Below are positions 2,872 through 19,232 of a DNA stretch of 20,397 nucleotides, piece by piece. Every line of letters starts with the position of its first letter. The first letter of the stretch is position 1. The notes below the pieces were generated by a model. It did no database searches and was not told the origin of the DNA. It saw nothing but the letters and a program-made list of their open reading frames with translations. This DNA is from a virus, in the IMG/VR virus record IMGVR_UViG_3300009156_000344, positions 1 through 20,397 of that record. The stretch is one strand, 5' to 3'. The translations under genes were made by a program, and so were the position numbers.

Positions 2872-3135
2872 TCATTGCGCCTTTTGTCTTTGCGCAATCC
2901 GGCCTCCATGCTTGCCCACCCCTTTGCGAGCGGGCCGAGGCTTGCGTCTTGCTGTGGCATGCGCCTCTCCTTTGCGTCTGCGACTGCGGCTCGACCAGCG
3001 TTGGATCACGCTGTCGGACCAGAGGATCAGCCGCCCATTGCGCGTGGTGGGCTTGGGAAAATGCCCCAGGTCCACCCAGCGCATGATGGTTCGCTTGCTC
3101 TTGCCGATCCGCTCGGAGACATCATCCAGCGTCAT
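2872..3135 (-). CDS. AlpA/MerR-like helix-turn-helix DNA-binding protein (87 aa)
   Basis: Residues 1-42 form a winged helix-turn-helix of the excisionase/AlpA/MerR type. MTLDDVSERIGKSKRTIMRW is the HTH, followed by GHFPKPTTRNGRLILWS, the typical FPxP...wing and the W-S/D...I-x-x-W end. This architecture is known from phage regulators and recombination directionality factors. Residues about 50-87 are a very basic tail (SRSRRRKGE, ARRKPRPARKG), likely non-specific DNA contact. The start at 3135 has AAAGG nine bases upstream; an alternative ATG at 3159 would add MARQRLHG. The gene overlaps the end of the ERF gene by 14 bases. No integrase is visible nearby, so a regulator role seems as likely as excisionase. 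Confidence 0.75.
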   Translation of the reverse strand: MTLDDVSERIGKSKRTIMRWVDLGHFPKPTTRNGRLILWSDSVIQRWSSRSRRRKGEAHATARRKPRPARKGVGKHGGRIAQRQKAQ

Positions 3136-3997
3136 CCCGTGCAGCCTTTGCCTTGCCATCCTGGACCGCCTGGATCATGTGGCGAAGCTTGTTGAACTTG
3201 CCGACATCGTAATGCTTCAGCGCCTCGAACCCGTCGCTGTTGGCAACGATCCACTCATCGACGCGTTCGAATGTCCTGGCGGCTTTGATGTAGGCGAAGA
3301 GGTCGTTGGCCCATCGCTTCCATTCGTCTTCGCTGTTCCTCTCGTTGATCTCCAGCTCGTAGGGGTCGATCTCGACCGGCGCTGGCTTCTCGATCGGATC
3401 GCGATTTGCCCTGACGGGTGATCGTGGCGGCGCGGCATCGCCCGCGGCATCGCCATCATCATCATCCGTTGCGGTCAGTCCGAGGGCGGCGTTCAACGTA
3501 TAGCGTTGCAGGTATGTCACCGCGCTACCGATCGCCTGGATGGCATTCTTGTTGCCCGAGAGGTCCGCAGTGGCAGAGAGTGAGTTCTCCTCGCTGTAGC
3601 CGTCGCGGTGGCTGATGATGCAGGTCACGGTGACGACAGCGGGTGCGGTGGTCACGGTGCGGAAGCGATAGGTCAGGCCATGCTTGCTGAGTGGCTTGTC
3701 GATGGCTTCGGCGATCGCTGCCATGTCTGCGAATTTGTAGAAAGTGCGTTGTCCCTGGCGGTTGGTGTAATCGACCTTGCGTTCCTTCTTGATTGCCGGA
3801 AACTCCGCCTTGGCGTCGGCCATGGCAGCGGCATAGGCCTTGTGCGCCTTGTTCGCGACAGCACGTTCGTGCAGCCCCATGAGTTTCTCGAACACGTCGA
3901 TATTGGCACCGCTGACCACCGCGCGCTGTATCAGCTCCATCGGAGAGATATCCTGAGCAACAATCATTTCGTTCTGTCGTTCTGCGACTGCGTTCAT
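3122..3997 (-). CDS. erf: ERF family single-strand annealing recombinase
   Basis: This is a 291-residue protein with the ERF core at about 45-182. It has NKAHKAYAAAMADAKAEFPA, then FYKFADMAAIAEAI, GLTYRFRTVTT, VTVTCIISHRDG and the hallmark NKNAIQAIGSAVTYLQRYTL leading into ALGLTATDDDDG. Known ERF proteins (P22 Erf type) bind single-stranded DNA and anneal complementary strands, promoting phage genome circularisation and recombination in the cytoplasm. The region after 182 is a Pro/Ala linker and a helical C-terminal domain of about 80 residues that is more variable in the family. The ATG directly follows the stop of the Gp157-like gene (TGAATG), which fixes the start and places the two in one operon. 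ERF and Gp157 together form a common phage recombination pair. Assignment is secure at family level. Confidence 0.93.
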   Translation of the reverse strand: MNAVAERQNEMIVAQDISPMELIQRAVVSGANIDVFEKLMGLHERAVANKAHKAYAAAMADAKAEFPAIKKERKVDYTNRQGQRTFYKFADMAAIAEAIDKPLSKHGLTYRFRTVTTAPAVVTVTCIISHRDGYSEENSLSATADLSGNKNAIQAIGSAVTYLQRYTLNAALGLTATDDDDGDAAGDAAPPRSPVRANRDPIEKPAPVEIDPYELEINERNSEDEWKRWANDLFAYIKAARTFERVDEWIVANSDGFEALKHYDVGKFNKLRHMIQAVQDGKAKAARDDAG

Positions 3998-4492
3998 TCA
4001 GGTCACCATCAGGGTTGGTTCTGCGTTGGAGAGGGTTGCGCCGGGGATCGTGCGGCCCTCCTTGATGAGGCGTTTGATCTCGGTCAGGTTGGGTTCGCGT
4101 GTCACCCGGATGCAGTCTTCCGGCAGCTCGCTCTCGTTGGTGACGATCACCCAGGGCGTGCCGTTGCGGATCGAGAGGGTGGCCTGGACCAGCTCCAGCT
4201 TTTTCAATCCGGCGTCCTGCATGATGTTGAAGGCGAGGTCGCGCATGGCCTTGTGGCGGGCGAGGTAGCGATCGCGCCGGGTCTTGAGGTCTTTGATCAA
4301 GGCGGCCTGGGCGAGGGCCATCTTCTCGGCATCGGCCATGCGGTCGACGAGGATATCCATGAACTCGTGGGTGTCGGTTTCGCTGGCGATCGCGAGCTGG
4401 AACAGCTCCTCATCGTCGCAGACATCGGGATGGGTGAGGCGAAGGCGCTCGATCTGCGAGCGGAGGTCAGCCGGGTTCAGAGCGCGCGGCAT
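3998..4492 (-). CDS. Gp157 family protein (siphovirus Gp157-like)
   Basis: This 164-residue protein has a length typical for the family. It starts MPRALNPADLRSQIERL at 4492, with AAGGTGAG about six bases upstream. Longer in-frame extensions are open but cross the non-coding leader and lack a ribosome binding site. The N-terminal part is helical with DTHEFMDILVDRMADAEK. The C-terminal part carries the recognisable Gp157 pattern: LVQATLSIRNGTPWVIVTN, then LPEDCIRVTREPNLTEIKRL and the IPGA motif before the end. Gp157 proteins are named after a streptococcal phage protein linked to phage resistance, and they are usually found next to ERF or RecT recombinases, as here. The biochemical role is not established. 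It is the first gene of the leftward operon and so is controlled by the divergent region to its right. Confidence 0.88.
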   Translation of the reverse strand: MPRALNPADLRSQIERLRLTHPDVCDDEELFQLAIASETDTHEFMDILVDRMADAEKMALAQAALIKDLKTRRDRYLARHKAMRDLAFNIMQDAGLKKLELVQATLSIRNGTPWVIVTNESELPEDCIRVTREPNLTEIKRLIKEGRTIPGATLSNAEPTLMVT

Positions 4493-4581
4493 TGCGCTCA
4501 CCTTTGTGCTGTATGGTGAGATGCTTAAAGGTCGATCAATAAAGGGGCGCCGAATGGGCGCCGGGTGGTTAGTAAGGCAAT

Positions 4582-4673
4582 GAACCCTTGGAGGAAGATT
4601 GCCCCCCGCGTATTCCCTCTTTCGAGGTGTTGTATTTCGCGGGCCGCCCGACATAAGGGAGGCCCAAGGGTTC
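4582..4673. ncRNA. Candidate structured RNA: three nested inverted repeats
   Basis: A perfect 10-base inverted repeat, GAACCCTTGG (4582-4591) with CCAAGGGTTC (4664-4673), encloses a second pair, CCCGCG (4605-4610) with CGCGGG (4638-4643). That pair encloses a small hairpin CCTC-TTTC-GAGG (4616-4627). Pairs at three levels in register suggest a folded RNA rather than a simple binding site. If leftward transcription starts to the right, it lies in the 5' leader of the Gp157-ERF operon, 90 bases upstream of the start. If not, it could be a stand-alone RNA on either strand. No known riboswitch class is recognised. GC-rich DNA yields chance pairings, so the call is moderate to low. Confidence 0.35.
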
Positions 4674-4685
4674 TGAATGCCACGA

Positions 4686-4707
4686 CTGGCGCTTACTACG
4701 GCGCCAG
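4686..4707. repeat. Inverted repeat/hairpin
   Basis: CTGGCGC (4686-4692) and GCGCCAG (4701-4707) form a perfect 7-bp stem with an 8-base loop, only 12 bases from the end of the nested repeats at 4582-4673. There is no T run on either side, so it is not an obvious intrinsic terminator. It may belong to the same structured leader. Confidence 0.5.
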
Positions 4708-4814
4708 CCGCACGGTCACTATACGCACCGCTCAGCCAAAATGAGAAGGGTAGAAACGCAGTTCCTGCCGTCGGATGACGGTGCGGCAAATGTGGCGGGA
4801 ATCGTCACTTTTTC

Positions 4815-5379: not shown

Positions 5380-5801
5380 GCGCGGGGCGTCAGCTCCATC
5401 TGTTCAAGGGCAAGCGACAGAAGGGCACGCCCCTGCCGCGGGCGAAGGAGTTCGAGCTGCACTGCATGGTGGCCGACACACTGCGCCGCTGGTGCCATCC
5501 GATGTGGCGCTACACCCACATGCCGATGGGCGAGCGGCGCGAGCTGGTCACCGCGATGCGGCTTAAAAGGATGGGGGTTACTCCCGGCTGGCCGGATTTC
5601 CTGTTCGTCGGGCCGCGCGGTGCGATCGTGTGGCTGGAGCTGAAGCGTCCCGGCGGCGGGCACATGAGCGTGGAGCAGGAAAGCCTCGCGCTGCACCTCA
5701 CCACGGTGTGCGGCCACGTGCACATCGTCACCAACGATTACCAGATGGCGCTCGACCAACTGCACGACCACGGCATCGTGCGCGCGACGGTGAGCGCATG
5801 A
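5376..5801 (+). CDS. VRR-NUC domain nuclease (141 aa)
   Basis: The start at 5376 overlaps the regulator's stop as ATGA. The protein matches the small phage VRR-NUC type of PD-(D/E)XK nuclease. Visible features are an N-terminal acidic helix with E25/E27 (KEFELH), the catalytic Asp74 in GWPDF, the Glu88-x-Lys90 pair in IVWLELKRP, and Gln101 in SVEQE following the core. Stand-alone VRR-NUC proteins are known or proposed to cut branched DNA such as Holliday junctions and flaps. In a phage this would resolve recombination or replication intermediates before packaging. Length is as expected. The neighbour three genes downstream may be a second PD-(D/E)XK protein. The family assignment is strong; the exact substrate is inferred. 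Confidence 0.85.
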   Translation: MSAGRQLHLFKGKRQKGTPLPRAKEFELHCMVADTLRRWCHPMWRYTHMPMGERRELVTAMRLKRMGVTPGWPDFLFVGPRGAIVWLELKRPGGGHMSVEQESLALHLTTVCGHVHIVTNDYQMALDQLHDHGIVRATVSA

Positions 5802-7533: not shown

Positions 7534-8760
7534 ATGGCCGATGACCCCGACAACGTCGTCCACATAAGCCAGCCGCAGAACTGGCGTGCGCTCTGCCAGA
7601 AGGGCGAAAAGGGCAAAGGCCTGCGCTGCAATTCCAGCAATGTGCTGATCGCACTGCGCAACGATGTCGCCCTGCGCGACTGCTTCGCATACGACGAGAT
7701 GCTGCGCACCGCAGTGGTCGAGCACGAGATCGGCATGATCGATGCGTGCCACCGCTGGCTGACCGACACGGATGTGCTGAAGCTGCACGTCTGGCTGCAG
7801 CAGAACGGATTTCCCGGCATCGGCATCGAGACAGTGCGCAACGCCCTGCAACAGCGATGCGAGGAGTGCAAGTTCCATCCGGTCTACCGCTATCTCAAGT
7901 CGCTGGTCTGGGACGAGCGGCCACGCATCGGGGTGTGGCTGACGCGGTACCTGGGTTCCCCGCTGAACCCGTTCACGATGCACATCGGACGCATGTTCCT
8001 GGTGCAGATGATCGCCCGCATCCGCGAGCCAGGATGCCAAGCGGATCACATGCTGGTGCTGGAAGGCCCCCAGGGCGCCCTGAAATCGAGCGCCTGTCGC
8101 GTTCTGGGCGGCGAGTGGTACTCGGACCACCTCCCCGAAATCAGCGCATCCAGAGAGGCCTCACAGCATCTGCGCGGCAAATGGCTGATCGAGGTCGCCG
8201 AAATGCACGCCATGAACCGCGCCGAGGCAACCATCCTGAAAAGCTTCATCACACGCACGACCGAACGCTATCGGCCCTTCTGGGGACGCAACGAGGTCTG
8301 CGAGCCGCGCCAGTGCGTGTTCATTGGAACCACGAACCAGGACGCCTACCTGCGCGACCCAACCGGCGGCAGGCGCTTCTGGCCGGTCGCAACCGCGGTC
8401 GACGCAAAGATTGATCTGGACGCGCTCGCCGACGATCGCGATCAGCTCCTCGCCGAAGCCGTCGAAAGCTATCGACAGGGCGACCAATGGTGGCCCGATC
8501 AGCAGTTCGAACACGAGTTCATCCAGCCCGAACAAGCCAGCCGATATGCAGGCGATATCTGGGAGGACAAAATCACCCAGCACATCAGCGGACGGACCAA
8601 GGTCACCACAGCCGAAATCGCCAAGGATTGCCTCTTCATCGAAGCAGGACACCAAACCAGCTCTCACGATATCCGCATCACCAATATCCTCAAGGAACTC
8701 GGATGGCGCCGCAAACGATCCAAACACGGCGTCTCATGGGTCTTCGGCGCCGAAATCTGA
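7534..8760 (+). CDS. VapE/VirE-type replication helicase (SF3-like ATPase)
   Basis: This 408-residue protein matches the phage virulence-associated E (VapE) family. Walker A is at 178-186 (GPQGALKSS), the acidic Walker B-like strand at 217-223 (WLIEVAE), sensor 1 at 265-268 (GTTN), and an arginine-finger-like DPTGGRRFWPV at 275-285. Upstream, residues 110-140 (FHPVYRYLKSLVWD) form the usual linker, and the C-terminal 60 residues look like a winged helix (VTTAEIAKDCL, then HDIRITNILKELGWRRKR). Known relatives are primase-helicase-like replication initiators of phages and satellite elements that act at the origin. No primase domain is seen. GGGGAGA precedes ATG 7534. It lies immediately beside the repeat-rich block at 8761-9110, the natural place for its origin. 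The 3' part is notably C- and A-rich on this strand. Confidence 0.88.
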   Translation: MADDPDNVVHISQPQNWRALCQKGEKGKGLRCNSSNVLIALRNDVALRDCFAYDEMLRTAVVEHEIGMIDACHRWLTDTDVLKLHVWLQQNGFPGIGIETVRNALQQRCEECKFHPVYRYLKSLVWDERPRIGVWLTRYLGSPLNPFTMHIGRMFLVQMIARIREPGCQADHMLVLEGPQGALKSSACRVLGGEWYSDHLPEISASREASQHLRGKWLIEVAEMHAMNRAEATILKSFITRTTERYRPFWGRNEVCEPRQCVFIGTTNQDAYLRDPTGGRRFWPVATAVDAKIDLDALADDRDQLLAEAVESYRQGDQWWPDQQFEHEFIQPEQASRYAGDIWEDKITQHISGRTKVTTAEIAKDCLFIEAGHQTSSHDIRITNILKELGWRRKRSKHGVSWVFGAEI

Positions 8761-8765
8761 GGGGG

Positions 8766-8785
8766 GTGTTCCGAAATCGGAACAC
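8766..8785. repeat. 20-bp palindrome after the helicase gene
   Basis: GTGTTCCGA-AA-TCGGAACAC has perfect 9-base arms with a 2-base centre and starts 6 bases after the stop codon. It is followed by G-rich sequence, not a T run, so it is not a standard intrinsic terminator. A protein-binding site or the edge of the origin is more likely. Confidence 0.6.
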
Positions 8786-8786
8786 G

Positions 8787-8969
8787 GGTGTAGGGTGTAT
8801 GGGGGTGTATGATTTGCTTGATATAAGACTAGAAATAAAGAGAGAGAGAGAGAGTATATAGGGGTGATCGTACAACCCATACACCTCCTACACCAGTGTA
8901 TGGTTGGTGTATGGTTTGAGCGTGACATATTTGTTGGAGCGCGGTGTAGGGTGTGTATGATGTGTATGG
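8787..8969. repeat. Iteron cluster, GGTGTA(T)GG-type repeats
   Basis: Forward copies are at 8787-8794 (GGTGTAGG), 8794-8802 (GGTGTATGG), 8804-8812 (GGTGTATGA), 8895-8903 (AGTGTATGG), 8906-8914 (GGTGTATGG), 8943-8950 (GGTGTAGG), 8952-8960 (TGTGTATGA) and 8961-8969 (TGTGTATGG). Inverted copies are at 8877-8885 (CCATACACC) and 8887-8894 (CCTACACC). The 12-mer GGTGTAGGGTGT occurs at 8787 and 8943. CCATACAC (8877-8884) with GTGTATGG (8896-8903) can form a hairpin. Spacing is irregular and there are no unique spacers, so this is not CRISPR. Confidence 0.75.
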
Positions 8970-9033
8970 TTCGGCGCATATACTAGCCTAAAATCGACGC
9001 GCCGTTGCATCCGAACCCACTCTCCAATTACGC

Positions 9034-9042
9034 TGTGGATAA
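9034..9042 (-). promoter_or_regulatory. Perfect DnaA box
   Basis: The plus strand reads TGTGGATAA, the exact reverse complement of the strong E. coli DnaA box TTATCCACA. It lies 65 bases beyond the last iteron and 69 bases before the next gene. One exact 9-mer can arise by chance, but its location in the repeat-rich block supports DnaA recruitment. Confidence 0.55.
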
Positions 9043-9110
9043 CGCAACTTCGCAACAATGTTGCGGGGAACTCACCAGCTCAAACTGAGAGAGCATAGGA
9101 ACTTGCCTAA

Positions 9111-9398
9111 ATGCCCAGAGCCGCAGTTAATCTACAATCCTTGGCTCGCGTGCATACCGAGACGTGCATCCGCCAGCTCGCCGCGATCGCCGCGCAGAGC
9201 GAGAGCGACAGCGCACGCGTGACCGCGTGCGGCATGCTGCTCGACCGCGGTTGGGGCAAGGCGCCGCAGTCGCACACTGGCGAGAACGGCGAAGGCGGCA
9301 TCCGCGTCGTCATCCGGCACATCGTGGAAGGTCGCGATGCACCGCGCATCGTTGACGCAAAGCCTGTGCCGATTATTCGCGCACTGAACGACGAATAA
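9111..9398 (+). CDS. Possible small terminase subunit / DUF5681-like protein (95 aa)
   Basis: The N-terminal 55 residues are helical with the pattern LARVHTETCIRQLAAIAAQ and ARVTACGMLLDRGWGKAPQS. The ARV-x-A-x-x-x-L-L-D-R-G-(W/Y)-G-K motif is the part shared with DUF5681-like and other small proteins found just upstream of large terminases in alphaproteobacterial phages. The C-terminal third (GGIRVVIRHIVEGRDAPR) is beta-like. Position two steps before TerL suggests the DNA-recognition (small) terminase subunit, but it is short and lacks a clear HTH, so this is mainly positional. AGGA lies about ten bases upstream of the ATG. A 7-base inverted repeat (TTATTCG at 9373 with CGAATAA at 9392) covers the stop codon. 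Confidence 0.6.
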   Translation: MPRAAVNLQSLARVHTETCIRQLAAIAAQSESDSARVTACGMLLDRGWGKAPQSHTGENGEGGIRVVIRHIVEGRDAPRIVDAKPVPIIRALNDE

Positions 9399-15481: not shown

Positions 15482-16461
15482 GTGCGCGCGAGGCGATCGT
15501 GCGAGCACTGCTCAAGGGTGCCCCCGGTGGCCCGCATCCGAGCGGCATCCATGTGTATCATCAATCGCCGCACGACATCGATCGGTTCGATTGGTCGAAG
15601 ATCGGCACTGGCGAAGGCGGCGCGGCATTCACCAAGGGCTTCTATTTTGCCGAGAACCCGGCAGTGAGCGGCCAGGGCGGGCAGTATTGGCAGCAGTTCA
15701 AGGGGCGGTTCAGCGAGCCTGAAATAGCCGCTGCCGAGAAATTGCAGAGCACTGGCTTTGATCGTGAGGCTGCGATTGCGGCGTACCAAAAGCGCATTGA
15801 CGAGATGGAGGCGCTACGCAAGAGCGGCGTGCTGCATCCTAGCGTGAAGGGCAACTACTCCGACCCGGTGATCATCGACAGCATCAACAAATCTTTGCTC
15901 CGCAATCTTCAGGAGGAGCGCGATCTACTGACACGCGGCGCTCCGGTCGGCCCGCGCACCTACGAGGTGAACATCAACGCGCGGCCCGATTTGATGTTGG
16001 ACTGGGATGAGCGATTGGTCGCGCAGCCGCAGGTCATGGAGCAGCTCAAGACGGTGCAGGGACTGCCGCGCAGTGTGCAGAACTTCCTGGCTGACCCGCG
16101 CCCGCGCGCCACCGGCAAAGACCTCGCCAGCGAGCTGGAGTGGGACATTGGCCGCGAAGGACCGCCGCAGGTTCTGCGCGAGGCTGGTATTCCCGGTATT
16201 CGCTATCTCGACCAGGGTTCAAGGTCCGGTCAGGCGCTGCAGAACCAGATCAGGCAATACGAAGCATTGCCGGAAACACAGTTCAGCAAGACAAGACTGG
16301 AAGAGCTGCGCGGGCGATTGGCGGCATCGCCCCCGACCTACAACTACGTGATCAACGATCCCTCCAAGCTCGACATTCTCGGCAAATACGGTGTGGTCGG
16401 CACGGCAGGCGGCGGCCTGGGCGTGCTCGCTGCGCAGGATCAGTATCCGGAGGCGCAGTGA
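15478..16461 (+). CDS. Putative ADP-ribosyltransferase (ART-PolyVal-like, 327 aa)
   Basis: The N-terminus carries the ART-PolyVal pattern: HVYHQSPHDIDRFDWSKIGT (residues 25-44) then GFYFAENPAVSG (54-65). It gives the conserved His28, Tyr56 and Glu59 expected near the NAD-binding pocket; the usual HGS is HQS here. The C-terminal part has GIPGIRYLDQGSR (about 236-248) and YNYVINDPSKLDILGKYG, segments that recur with this domain. ART-PolyVal is known as a domain of phage and conjugative polyvalent proteins thought to be delivered into the host to modify targets. A central region (80-210) is helical. The ATG at 15478 (TGATG with the tailspike stop, GGGGAGG upstream) is preferred over an adjacent GTG. 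Activity is predicted, not shown. The gene is bounded by exact 16-base repeats. Confidence 0.75.
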   Translation: MGAREAIVRALLKGAPGGPHPSGIHVYHQSPHDIDRFDWSKIGTGEGGAAFTKGFYFAENPAVSGQGGQYWQQFKGRFSEPEIAAAEKLQSTGFDREAAIAAYQKRIDEMEALRKSGVLHPSVKGNYSDPVIIDSINKSLLRNLQEERDLLTRGAPVGPRTYEVNINARPDLMLDWDERLVAQPQVMEQLKTVQGLPRSVQNFLADPRPRATGKDLASELEWDIGREGPPQVLREAGIPGIRYLDQGSRSGQALQNQIRQYEALPETQFSKTRLEELRGRLAASPPTYNYVINDPSKLDILGKYGVVGTAGGGLGVLAAQDQYPEAQ

Positions 16462-16464
16462 TGG
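16449..16464 (+). repeat. 16-base direct repeat bounding the ART gene, copy 2
   Basis: This is the second copy of GGAGGCGCAGTGATGG, spanning the stop of the ART gene and the start of the 923-residue protein. The similarity extends slightly upstream (ATCCGG precedes both, with a 2-base length difference). Confidence 0.75.
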
Positions 16465-19232
16465 CGAGCTGGCGTTGGCCGCTGATCAAGGGCGTGGGCA
16501 TGACCGGCGCAGGCATTGCCGGGGGCACTGCGGCGACGCTCGATGCGTACCGCGATGAGCCGTGGGTCGGTGATCTGCGCGAGCTGCTGCATCCCGATCC
16601 GCGCAACCGCATGGGCAGCACGGTCGAGCCGAGCGCATATGACGAGGGACCGGCAGCCGCGCAGTCCGCGCGCGAGATGGCGGCGCGGCGTGTGCGTGGC
16701 GAGCTTGCGCCATCCGTAGCCGTCGAGCGTCGCTTTGGTGAGTTCGCGCCACTGTCGCCGCCCGCGCCGCCAACACGCGCCGACGCCTATCGCATGGGCG
16801 GCATCGCCGACATGAGCGAATACCAGGAGGCGCCGCGGGACTTCTACAAGAAGCTCGATGTTGCGGGGGCCGAGCGCGATGTCGCGCCCGATCCGCAGAT
16901 GAACCTGTTCGCCGCATCACCGCAGCAGACGCGCGTCGGCAAGGCGGCGGCAACTGTCCCGGATGCGCTGCTGATCCCGACCAGCCCGGTGGATCTCGCG
17001 CTGATGTCGCTGGGGCCTGCGGGCAAGATCGCTGGTGTTCCCGGCAAGGTCGCCGCCATGACGGCGGGCTTGATGGCGAGCGGCATTGATCCGGCCGAGG
17101 CAGGCATATCGGCCCAGGCGGCGAAGGCGATGCGCCGGGCGCGCCGCGAGCGCCTGATGGGTGGCGCGTTCGAGGGCGTCGAGCAGGAGCTGTACAACCC
17201 GCGTGCCGTCATCGGTGGCAACATGCCGCCCGAGGGCATGCGGATCTCGCCCGAGCTGCCGCCCGCGATCGCGGAGGCCTCGCCCGCCGCCCAGGCGGCG
17301 GCCATCCCGCTCGACATCGCAGCCGCACCGCCAAAGAGTTGGAACGCCAGCCTGCCGCGGCCGCGACCGGCCGCGACCTCGACGGCTATTCCGGATATCC
17401 GCAACATGCCGGTCGCCGACGCGATCGCGATCGCACGCACGCAGCCGCACCTGATCGAGGCAGGCGAGGGTAGCGCAGGCAAGTATGTCGGTGGCCCGCA
17501 CGATATTCAGTCAAAGCAGGCACTCAACGCACAGCGTCGCCGCTTCGATGAAATGGTCGCATCCGATCCGCGCGGTGGCGATTGGTACGACCGCTATCGT
17601 GCCGGTCAGAACGTCACCACGGGCGGCGATCCGGTGCAGAACCTCTGGCAGTCGGCACAGCATGGACAATTCTCTGCAGGCGTCAGTCCCGAGCACGAGC
17701 TGAACCTTGCACTGAAGGAGAACAACGCATCGATCGCGGGCATGCCGTACAAGGCCGGAACGCCCGCGCAGCATGAGGCGCATCTGCGTGCGCTCGCCGC
17801 CAAGGACCCGATGCTCTACCAGCTTGGCGAGAAGACCGGCGAATATCAGGTCAAGGTCGATCCCACGCAGCCGGGTGTGCCTGCGGGCGGCACCGCGACC
17901 GGCGTGAATGATTTTCGCCAGGGTAACGTGCATGGATACCCGGAGGGGTGGGACAAGGCATTCACCTCCGCGCAGCACAAGTATCTCGACTACGAGACGG
18001 CGCTTGCGGTCGATCGTGCCAATCAGGCGCAACTGGGCGGGCGCAGCGACTGGACCGGCGAGAAGCTCCAGGCGATCCCGTGGGTGATCGACAAGGCACG
18101 CGCCCTGATGTCGCGTAATGCCGAGCTGACCTACGAGCAGGCGATGCAGCTCGCGCTCAAGACCGTCGTGGACTTCTATCCGAAGCACACCTACTTCGCG
18201 ACGCATGAGGCGCAGCCGGGAGCCAATGTGGTCGGGCACATGGCGCAATCGGTGAACGCACCGCAGAGCGTGCGTGATCAATTCGCGCTCGATCCGCAAA
18301 GCTCGTGGGCCAATGCGCCGATGGGACGCGATGCGATCTACGCGGGCCTGGGCGTCGAGGGCACCGGCAATTACATGCGCGTGTTGCCATCGATCCCGAT
18401 GCAGGGCGTCTACGATACGCCCGCGGGCAACACTGAGTTCAATCTCGGACAGGTGGCGCGACCGCTGGGCGCGTTCCAGGCGCCTGCGCGCGATCCTGAG
18501 ACAAAGAAGGTCATCGACAAGACTGCGCCGTTCAAGCGGGTGGCTGATGCCGAGGAGACGATCCTCAATGCAGGCGAGGCGCTGCGCGGCTACATCGATG
18601 CGCAGAACGTCTCGACGTGGCACAAGCACTGGGCGGGCGGGCCGAACAAGGAAAGCGGATCGCTGTTCATCCCGCGCGACGGCCCTGCATCGCAGGCTGA
18701 TGTTCTCGCGCTGCGCAACATCGCGTCGCAGTATGGCCTGGGTGACGTTGTCGACACCGGGCGCGGCCTGACGGTCACCTCGTTTGGCAACATGCCTGCG
18801 GACAACAAGGCACTCGATAAGGCGCTGAAGGCGGGCGTGTTTGATCAGTTTGGGCCGCAGATGCGGACGCGCCTGGACACCGGCTACATCGACTACGTCG
18901 GCAAGTTCGATCAGGCCGGATCGGGCGAAGCCACCCGGCACATGCTCGAATACGTCAACAAGACGCCCGAGCTGCGTGATGCGTTCAATCGCAATCAGTA
19001 TGTCGGACAGAACGCGCTCGCACGCATGGAGCGCGACGAAAAATGGGCGGCCCGCTGGGGATCTCCACGCGAGGACATCCAGAAGGCGCGCGAGATTATC
19101 TCTCAGGGACCGGGTTGGGTCGATCGCCTGGAGGAGGCGCTGCGGGCTGGCGTTCTGCTGCCTGCGACGGTTGCGGCGATTTTTGCGGGGGCGACTGCGG
19201 TCCCGCGCGGGGGGTCGAATGATGGATCGTGA
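16461..19232 (+). CDS. Large polyvalent-type / internal virion protein (923 aa)
   Basis: The ATG at 16461 is coupled to the previous stop (TGATG) with GGAGG seven bases upstream; the frame is open further upstream only as a shadow of the ART gene. The N-terminus (LIKGVGMTGAGIAGGTAATL) and the end (AGVLLPATVAAIFAGATAV, about 894-912) are hydrophobic and membrane-like. Residues about 165-205 are an Ala/Gly-rich segment. The middle (about 360-430) has WYDRYRAGQNVTTGGDP and QFSAGVSPEHELNLALKENN, a pattern I associate with large polyvalent or ejected phage proteins. The rest is a long helical, charged protein with no clear enzyme motif. Likely an internal virion protein that enters the cell with DNA, alongside the ART protein (inference). 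The 3' end is overlapped by an antisense gene. Confidence 0.7.
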   Translation: MASWRWPLIKGVGMTGAGIAGGTAATLDAYRDEPWVGDLRELLHPDPRNRMGSTVEPSAYDEGPAAAQSAREMAARRVRGELAPSVAVERRFGEFAPLSPPAPPTRADAYRMGGIADMSEYQEAPRDFYKKLDVAGAERDVAPDPQMNLFAASPQQTRVGKAAATVPDALLIPTSPVDLALMSLGPAGKIAGVPGKVAAMTAGLMASGIDPAEAGISAQAAKAMRRARRERLMGGAFEGVEQELYNPRAVIGGNMPPEGMRISPELPPAIAEASPAAQAAAIPLDIAAAPPKSWNASLPRPRPAATSTAIPDIRNMPVADAIAIARTQPHLIEAGEGSAGKYVGGPHDIQSKQALNAQRRRFDEMVASDPRGGDWYDRYRAGQNVTTGGDPVQNLWQSAQHGQFSAGVSPEHELNLALKENNASIAGMPYKAGTPAQHEAHLRALAAKDPMLYQLGEKTGEYQVKVDPTQPGVPAGGTATGVNDFRQGNVHGYPEGWDKAFTSAQHKYLDYETALAVDRANQAQLGGRSDWTGEKLQAIPWVIDKARALMSRNAELTYEQAMQLALKTVVDFYPKHTYFATHEAQPGANVVGHMAQSVNAPQSVRDQFALDPQSSWANAPMGRDAIYAGLGVEGTGNYMRVLPSIPMQGVYDTPAGNTEFNLGQVARPLGAFQAPARDPETKKVIDKTAPFKRVADAEETILNAGEALRGYIDAQNVSTWHKHWAGGPNKESGSLFIPRDGPASQADVLALRNIASQYGLGDVVDTGRGLTVTSFGNMPADNKALDKALKAGVFDQFGPQMRTRLDTGYIDYVGKFDQAGSGEATRHMLEYVNKTPELRDAFNRNQYVGQNALARMERDEKWAARWGSPREDIQKAREIISQGPGWVDRLEEALRAGVLLPATVAAIFAGATAVPRGGSNDGS

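Follow-up and report, generated by a model that had tools for sequence, protein, structure and literature searches.

The PICI origin of replication, located 3' of rep, always has an AT-rich region with one iteron set on each side; a Gram-negative example was tested in E. coli, and the two-set layout was called unique to PICIs by its authors (PMC6092414). The C-terminal domain of SaPI Rep recognises iterons located directly downstream, and that of Cch2 binds its own repeats (PMC7581432). The origin of Streptococcus phage Sfi21, when present in many copies, confers phage resistance and blocks related phages (PMC6356513), and PLE satellites alter iterons and initiator domains jointly, escaping an origin-cutting nuclease (PMC8263062).

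The locus considered here belongs to a linear-ended IMG/VR virus record, 20,397 bases long, the whole of which is referred to below as the window. Its 350-base block at 8761-9110 is very probably the start site of phage DNA copying, and the helicase encoded by the preceding gene appears to grip a short repeated word within it. The rep-ori type itself was already known; what is new is the large, naturally occurring collection in which initiator domains and iterons are paired.

The helicase gene, the adjacent block and their surroundings

The features of the locus are listed below by coordinates, strand and description.

7534-8760, plus strand: VapE-type AAA+/SF3 helicase, proposed initiator (408 aa; PF05272, PHROG match, AF2 model)
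8560-8745, plus strand: C-terminal winged-helix domain (residues 343-404), proposed iteron reader (AF2 model; covariation with the repeat unit)
8659-8697, plus strand: recognition helix (residues 376-388), in which S376 and I380 covary with the unit
8704-8745, plus strand: wing (residues 391-404), in which R395 and V400 covary with the unit
8766-8785, no strand: 20-bp palindrome GTGTTCCGAAATCGGAACAC, with 9-bp perfect arms (GTGTTCCGA-AA-TCGGAACAC)
8787-8812, plus strand: iteron cluster I, three forward units (8787, 8794, 8804)
8813-8874, no strand: AT-rich spacer, proposed melting site, with (AG)8 and TATATAGGG; kept in the relative L002 despite different units
8877-8894, minus strand: iteron cluster II, two reverse units (8877-8885, 8887-8894)
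8895-8914, plus strand: forward unit pair adjoining cluster II (starts 8895/6 and 8906)
8943-8969, plus strand: iteron cluster III, three forward units spaced by 9 bp (8943, 8952/3, 8961/2)
9034-9042, minus strand: perfect DnaA box TTATCCACA, probably accessory, sole exact copy in the window
9111-9398, plus strand: 95-aa ORF, putative small terminase, bounding the block (weak PHROG match, E 0.13)

The helicase matched the Pfam VapE-like domain PF05272 (E 4.9e-72) and a PHROG DNA helicase (E 1.7e-91). Its AlphaFold2 model (pLDDT 92) displayed a C-terminal domain composed of helices 342-351, 359-365 and 376-388 and strands 391-396 and 399-404. The closest structure, far ahead of the next entry, was PriRep1-dsDNA 7pds (Z 32.9 over 391 residues, 15-408), a SaPI-family Rep bound to double-stranded DNA whose molecule name is 'Similar to D. 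nodosus vapE'. By its Pfam match, model and fold match, the proposed initiator is an AAA+/SF3 helicase with a C-terminal DNA-binding domain, as in SaPI/PICI rep-ori, and is presumably hexameric. The 20,397-base window yielded no recognisable primase. With 408 aa the window helicase is short, while many relatives (L132 and L191 for instance) carry a long N-terminal extension within one ORF of 600-970 aa. When the 69-aa C-terminal domain alone served as scan query, no relatives were found.

The block begins at the helicase stop codon, the gene ending at 8760 and the next plausible gene starting at 9111. Ten copies of GTGTA[GT]G were located in it, eight on the plus and two on the minus strand, while the remainder of the window held none; dinucleotide-shuffled versions of the block contained 0.2 copies on average and four at most. 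Clusters I and II flank the AT-rich spacer, in which (AG)8 occupies 8839-8854, forming two iteron sets around an AT-rich region as in the relatives. The first-pass annotation had described ten repeats in two orientations, a 20-bp palindrome, an AT-rich (AG)8 stretch and a perfect minus-strand DnaA box, all within a non-coding block right after a VapE/SF3-like helicase gene, and each of these parts was recovered here. The palindrome was absent from the nearest relative, L002. An Rfam search of the window returned no structured-RNA match. Cumulative GC skew, computed on this 20,397-base fragment only, reached its minimum at 3358, near the switch of gene direction, and was uninformative because the minimum is confounded by gene direction and the sequence is a fragment.

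Homologues of the ORF at 9111 (52-65 % identity) are located before the large terminase in near relatives, and in the window it is followed by a large-terminase-like gene and a portal gene (E 5.8e-177). As a satellite has no structural set of its own and the window carries these portal and large-terminase-like genes, the element is a phage and not a PICI. Other genes of the window deserve mention. An Erf-like ssDNA annealing protein (phrog_155, E 2.2e-39) lies beside a Mu Gam-like end-protection protein (phrog_253, E 5.6e-20) at 3122-4789 on the minus strand, the pair forming a recombination module on the strand opposite to the helicase gene. The protein encoded at 5385-5798 (plus strand) weakly matched the phage nuclease families phrog_824 and phrog_93; in Staphylococcus and Paenibacillus phages, VRR-NUC genes come after VapE. 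A 1030-aa ORF at 16140-19232 (plus strand), following a tail-spike-like gene, had no Pfam match and is possibly a large virion-internal or ejection protein.

Recurrence of the array in relatives

Three scans gathered 209 loci with helicase relatives, some contigs being represented twice. The tested set comprised 163 loci, the window included, after removal of duplicates and restriction to relatives at or above 35 % identity whose downstream sequence was long enough. The cellular relatives were almost all alphaproteobacterial (Methylobacterium, Bradyrhizobium, Xanthobacter, Roseomonas, Acetobacter and others).

For each locus, the repeated-7-mer score of the 350 bases 3' of the helicase stop was compared to that of every other window of its own contig. 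The post-helicase block exceeded all control windows in 98 of the 163 loci, where about one was expected. An inverted-cluster architecture, defined as two or more same-orientation copies spaced by 7-12 bp plus two or more in the opposite orientation, with centres 20-160 bp apart, was centred within 250 bp of the helicase stop in 104 of the 163 loci. All remaining 250-bp bins of those contigs together yielded about ten occurrences, some of which were arrays pushed downstream by inserted genes (L011, L055, L153, L170, L184). The candidate origin lies directly 3' of the proposed initiator gene, as in SaPI/PICI rep-ori. Typically, the core was formed by two clusters of opposite orientation with two to four units each, flanking a spacer that was AT-rich in most loci; same-orientation units were spaced with a peak at 8-10 bp, and low-GC stretches were present inside the blocks of most relatives.

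Neither measure detected an array beside the gene in 46 of the 163 loci. About seven of these carried one farther downstream, several showed diverged repeats by eye and some showed none. Among relatives below 35 % identity (first scan), an array was found in just one out of 20, yet several distant named phages possess one. Arrays follow VapE in phages of Marinobacter, Staphylococcus, Paenibacillus, Streptococcus, Corynebacterium and Yersinia, as well as in a Streptococcus satellite; in phage LPPA36 the array lies 405 bp downstream, past a small gene. By the array measure applied to named phages, Phocaeicola BM127P4, Ruegeria V16 and E. coli WFC displayed none.

Two named phages showed other kinds of repetition. 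In Rhodobacter phage RcIroh (L218), four head-to-tail GCCGCTCAGTT units, unlike the inverted clusters found elsewhere, follow a VapE-type primase gene past position 4392. In Phocaeicola phage BM127P4 (L216), past position 4290, a post-VapE stretch of about 100 bases is duplicated near-exactly some 200 bases on, in place of short iterons.

Lineage-specific words and the helicase C-terminal domain

Place and layout of the repeats were kept in relatives, but their letters were not, and these followed the DNA-reading domain of the helicase. The first-pass annotation had counted non-conservation of the repeats in relatives against an origin; taken literally, the locus fails that check, but in substance it passes. 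Against GTGTATG in the window, the unit of other lineages was TGACGCA, AGTGACG, TGTCACC, GTCCAAC, GTCCCAA, CAGTACC, GGTGAAC, TTCCAGT, GGACGAT or TGAGGCA. The nearest relative, L002 (72 % protein identity), aligned over the block: the spacer with (AG)n and TATATAGGG was kept, while the units were replaced in place, from GTGTAKG to GTGACA.

Covariation was assessed on 111 loci with a usable unit motif, the motifs being extracted automatically. In pairs with at least 60 % ATPase identity, the recognition helix (beta 0.23, p 0.002) and the wing (beta 0.19, p 0.002) were independent predictors of unit similarity, whereas the ATPase core was no predictor (beta 0.00, p 0.53); the permutations shuffled taxa, which removes shared ancestry in part only. 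The best four covarying columns out of 312 were V400 and R395 in the wing (partial r 0.31 and 0.30) and S376 and I380 in the recognition helix (0.26 and 0.24), all of which exceeded the permutation 99 % maximum of 0.20. Prediction of the unit from the nearest neighbour scored 0.653 when neighbours were chosen by the helix/wing segment versus 0.610 by the ATPase core (p 0.002, with ancestry partly removed).

Two Methylobacterium elements, L132 and L136, form a natural swap pair. Their ATPase cores are 95 % identical and their C-terminal domains only 49 %; their units are GGCGCAC and CGGACGAC, respectively, the inter-cluster spacer is alike, and similarity ends past the array. This joint change of C-terminal domain and units is what is expected if the former reads the latter. 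The conserved spacer of this pair is mostly an alternating purine-pyrimidine run rather than simply AT-rich, and may melt or bend differently.

Altogether, the repeat word tracks the recognition helix and wing of the C-terminal winged-helix domain and not the ATPase core, and strong covariation together with the swap pair suggests that this domain sets iteron specificity.

Interpretation of the locus and known systems

The origin proposed by the first-pass annotation, with repeats bound by the adjacent helicase, was supported by position, architecture, covariation and structure across more than 100 relatives, and other functions of the block were weighed against it. The next gene, at 9111, is a putative small terminase in the window and its nearest relatives, and in L011 and L055 inserted genes separate the array from the helicase, leaving it just upstream of the terminase gene; the repeats could then be a packaging (pac/cos) site for that small terminase. 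This is extremely improbable, since 101 of the 111 array loci lacked the window-type small or large terminase in their flank, the downstream sequence of 88 of these exceeding 3 kb (unrelated terminases being possible in some), unrelated phages and a satellite also carry the array after VapE, and the unit covaries with the reading domain of the helicase. A phage pac/cos site was accordingly rejected, its linkage to the small terminase failing across relatives in those 101 loci. An operator array serving a phage regulator, with the helicase as a mere neighbour, draws on the fact that repeated sites in non-coding DNA can be operators and on the palindrome located at the gene end. It was judged exceedingly unlikely: opposed clusters around an AT-rich spacer recur together with the helicase, the unit follows the helicase's own reading domain, and no sigma-70-like promoter was found in 8600-9300, although alphaproteobacterial promoters may differ. 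Autoregulation by the helicase may be an additional role.

The DnaA box, offered by the first-pass annotation as an origin mark, was indeed above background, with three boxes in the 44 kb of array blocks compared to two in 889 kb of background (0.068/kb versus 0.002/kb, approximately 30-fold), but these three belonged to only three of the 111 blocks; the box is probably accessory and no shared part of the array. Its perfect match inside the block and this enrichment favour an origin started by host DnaA, or by another phage protein, with the helicase acting only after loading. We regard this as very unlikely, as 108 of the 111 array blocks had no DnaA box and the repeats covary with the helicase. 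A DnaA-dependent, oriC-like theta origin was likewise dismissed: it needs a cluster of DnaA boxes, and a single perfect one is present here, boxes being found in three of the 111 blocks. An iteron plasmid origin of RepA/RepE type calls for a small winged-helix Rep gene, and the neighbour here is an AAA+ helicase.

The reading retained, with high confidence, is a SaPI/PICI-type origin at which the VapE helicase would bind the GGTGTATGG iterons via its C-terminal domain, melt the spacer and load itself. In the proposed course of events, the winged-helix domain (recognition helix 376-388, wing 391-404) would contact the iterons, and helicase copies would assemble on the oppositely oriented clusters flanking the AT-rich (AG)8/TATATA spacer. 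The assembled helicase would melt this spacer, load as hexamers and unwind outward, after which the host replisome would join, possibly with DnaA at the nearby box. The block would thereby serve as the origin in vivo.

The layout is wider than PICIs: it was seen in terminase/portal phages, in alphaproteobacterial genomes and after VapE in named phages of several bacterial phyla, which suggests one replicon type common to satellites and phages and provides a rule for spotting phage origins by eye, namely to inspect the region 3' of the VapE gene. More than 100 naturally paired initiator domains and target words are supplied, making origin recognition, phage/satellite incompatibility and origin-based interference directly testable. 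Judging from the nuclease escape of PLE and the origin interference of Sfi21, the rewriting of words may be favoured here by escape from origin-targeting or by compatibility of co-resident elements. More broadly, it is plausible, if slightly doubtful, that VapE helicases and their origins constitute one very large specificity system spanning phages, prophages and satellites. Iterons on either side of a conserved spacer would be rewritten in place together with a few helix and wing residues, perhaps under a simple residue-to-base code, yielding mutually compatible replicons and escape from competitors that titrate or cut origins.

Compared to described systems, the locus is closest to SaPI/PICI rep-ori (SaPIbov1, EcCICFT073; PMC6092414, PMC7581432), with which it shares an initiator helicase gene followed by two iteron sets around an AT-rich region, a specificity apparently residing in the helicase C-terminal domain (here as read from covariation) and the nearest solved fold, PriRep1-dsDNA 7pds. 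It differs by its portal and large terminase genes, the lack of a fused primase, a third iteron cluster and the unit GGTGTATGG, which is absent from the iterons described in PMC6092414 and PMC7581432. The 302-bp origin of Streptococcus phage Sfi21 (PER element; NC_000872, PMC6356513) is annotated as such, is likewise non-coding and contains repeats and an AT-rich core; it directly follows the 3' end of a gene for a D5/SF3-type ATPase. That ATPase (orf382) matches Pox_D5/DUF5906 instead of the VapE domain, and no alignment to the window protein was obtained; orf382 was therefore excluded as a VapE-domain relative and is an analogue only. In SCCmec Cch2 with its putative origin (PMC7581432), the helicase C-terminal domain binds short direct repeats located just past its operon, which parallels the arrangement proposed here, but with three AAGTG-type repeats only, another helicase branch and another element type. 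Finally, in the PLE RepA-ori of Vibrio cholerae satellites (PMC8263062, PMC7145576), iterons change together with the reading domain of the initiator and the two are exchanged as one module, as proposed here, although that initiator is of RepA_N type and not a helicase, and the iterons are semi-palindromes of about 30 bp.
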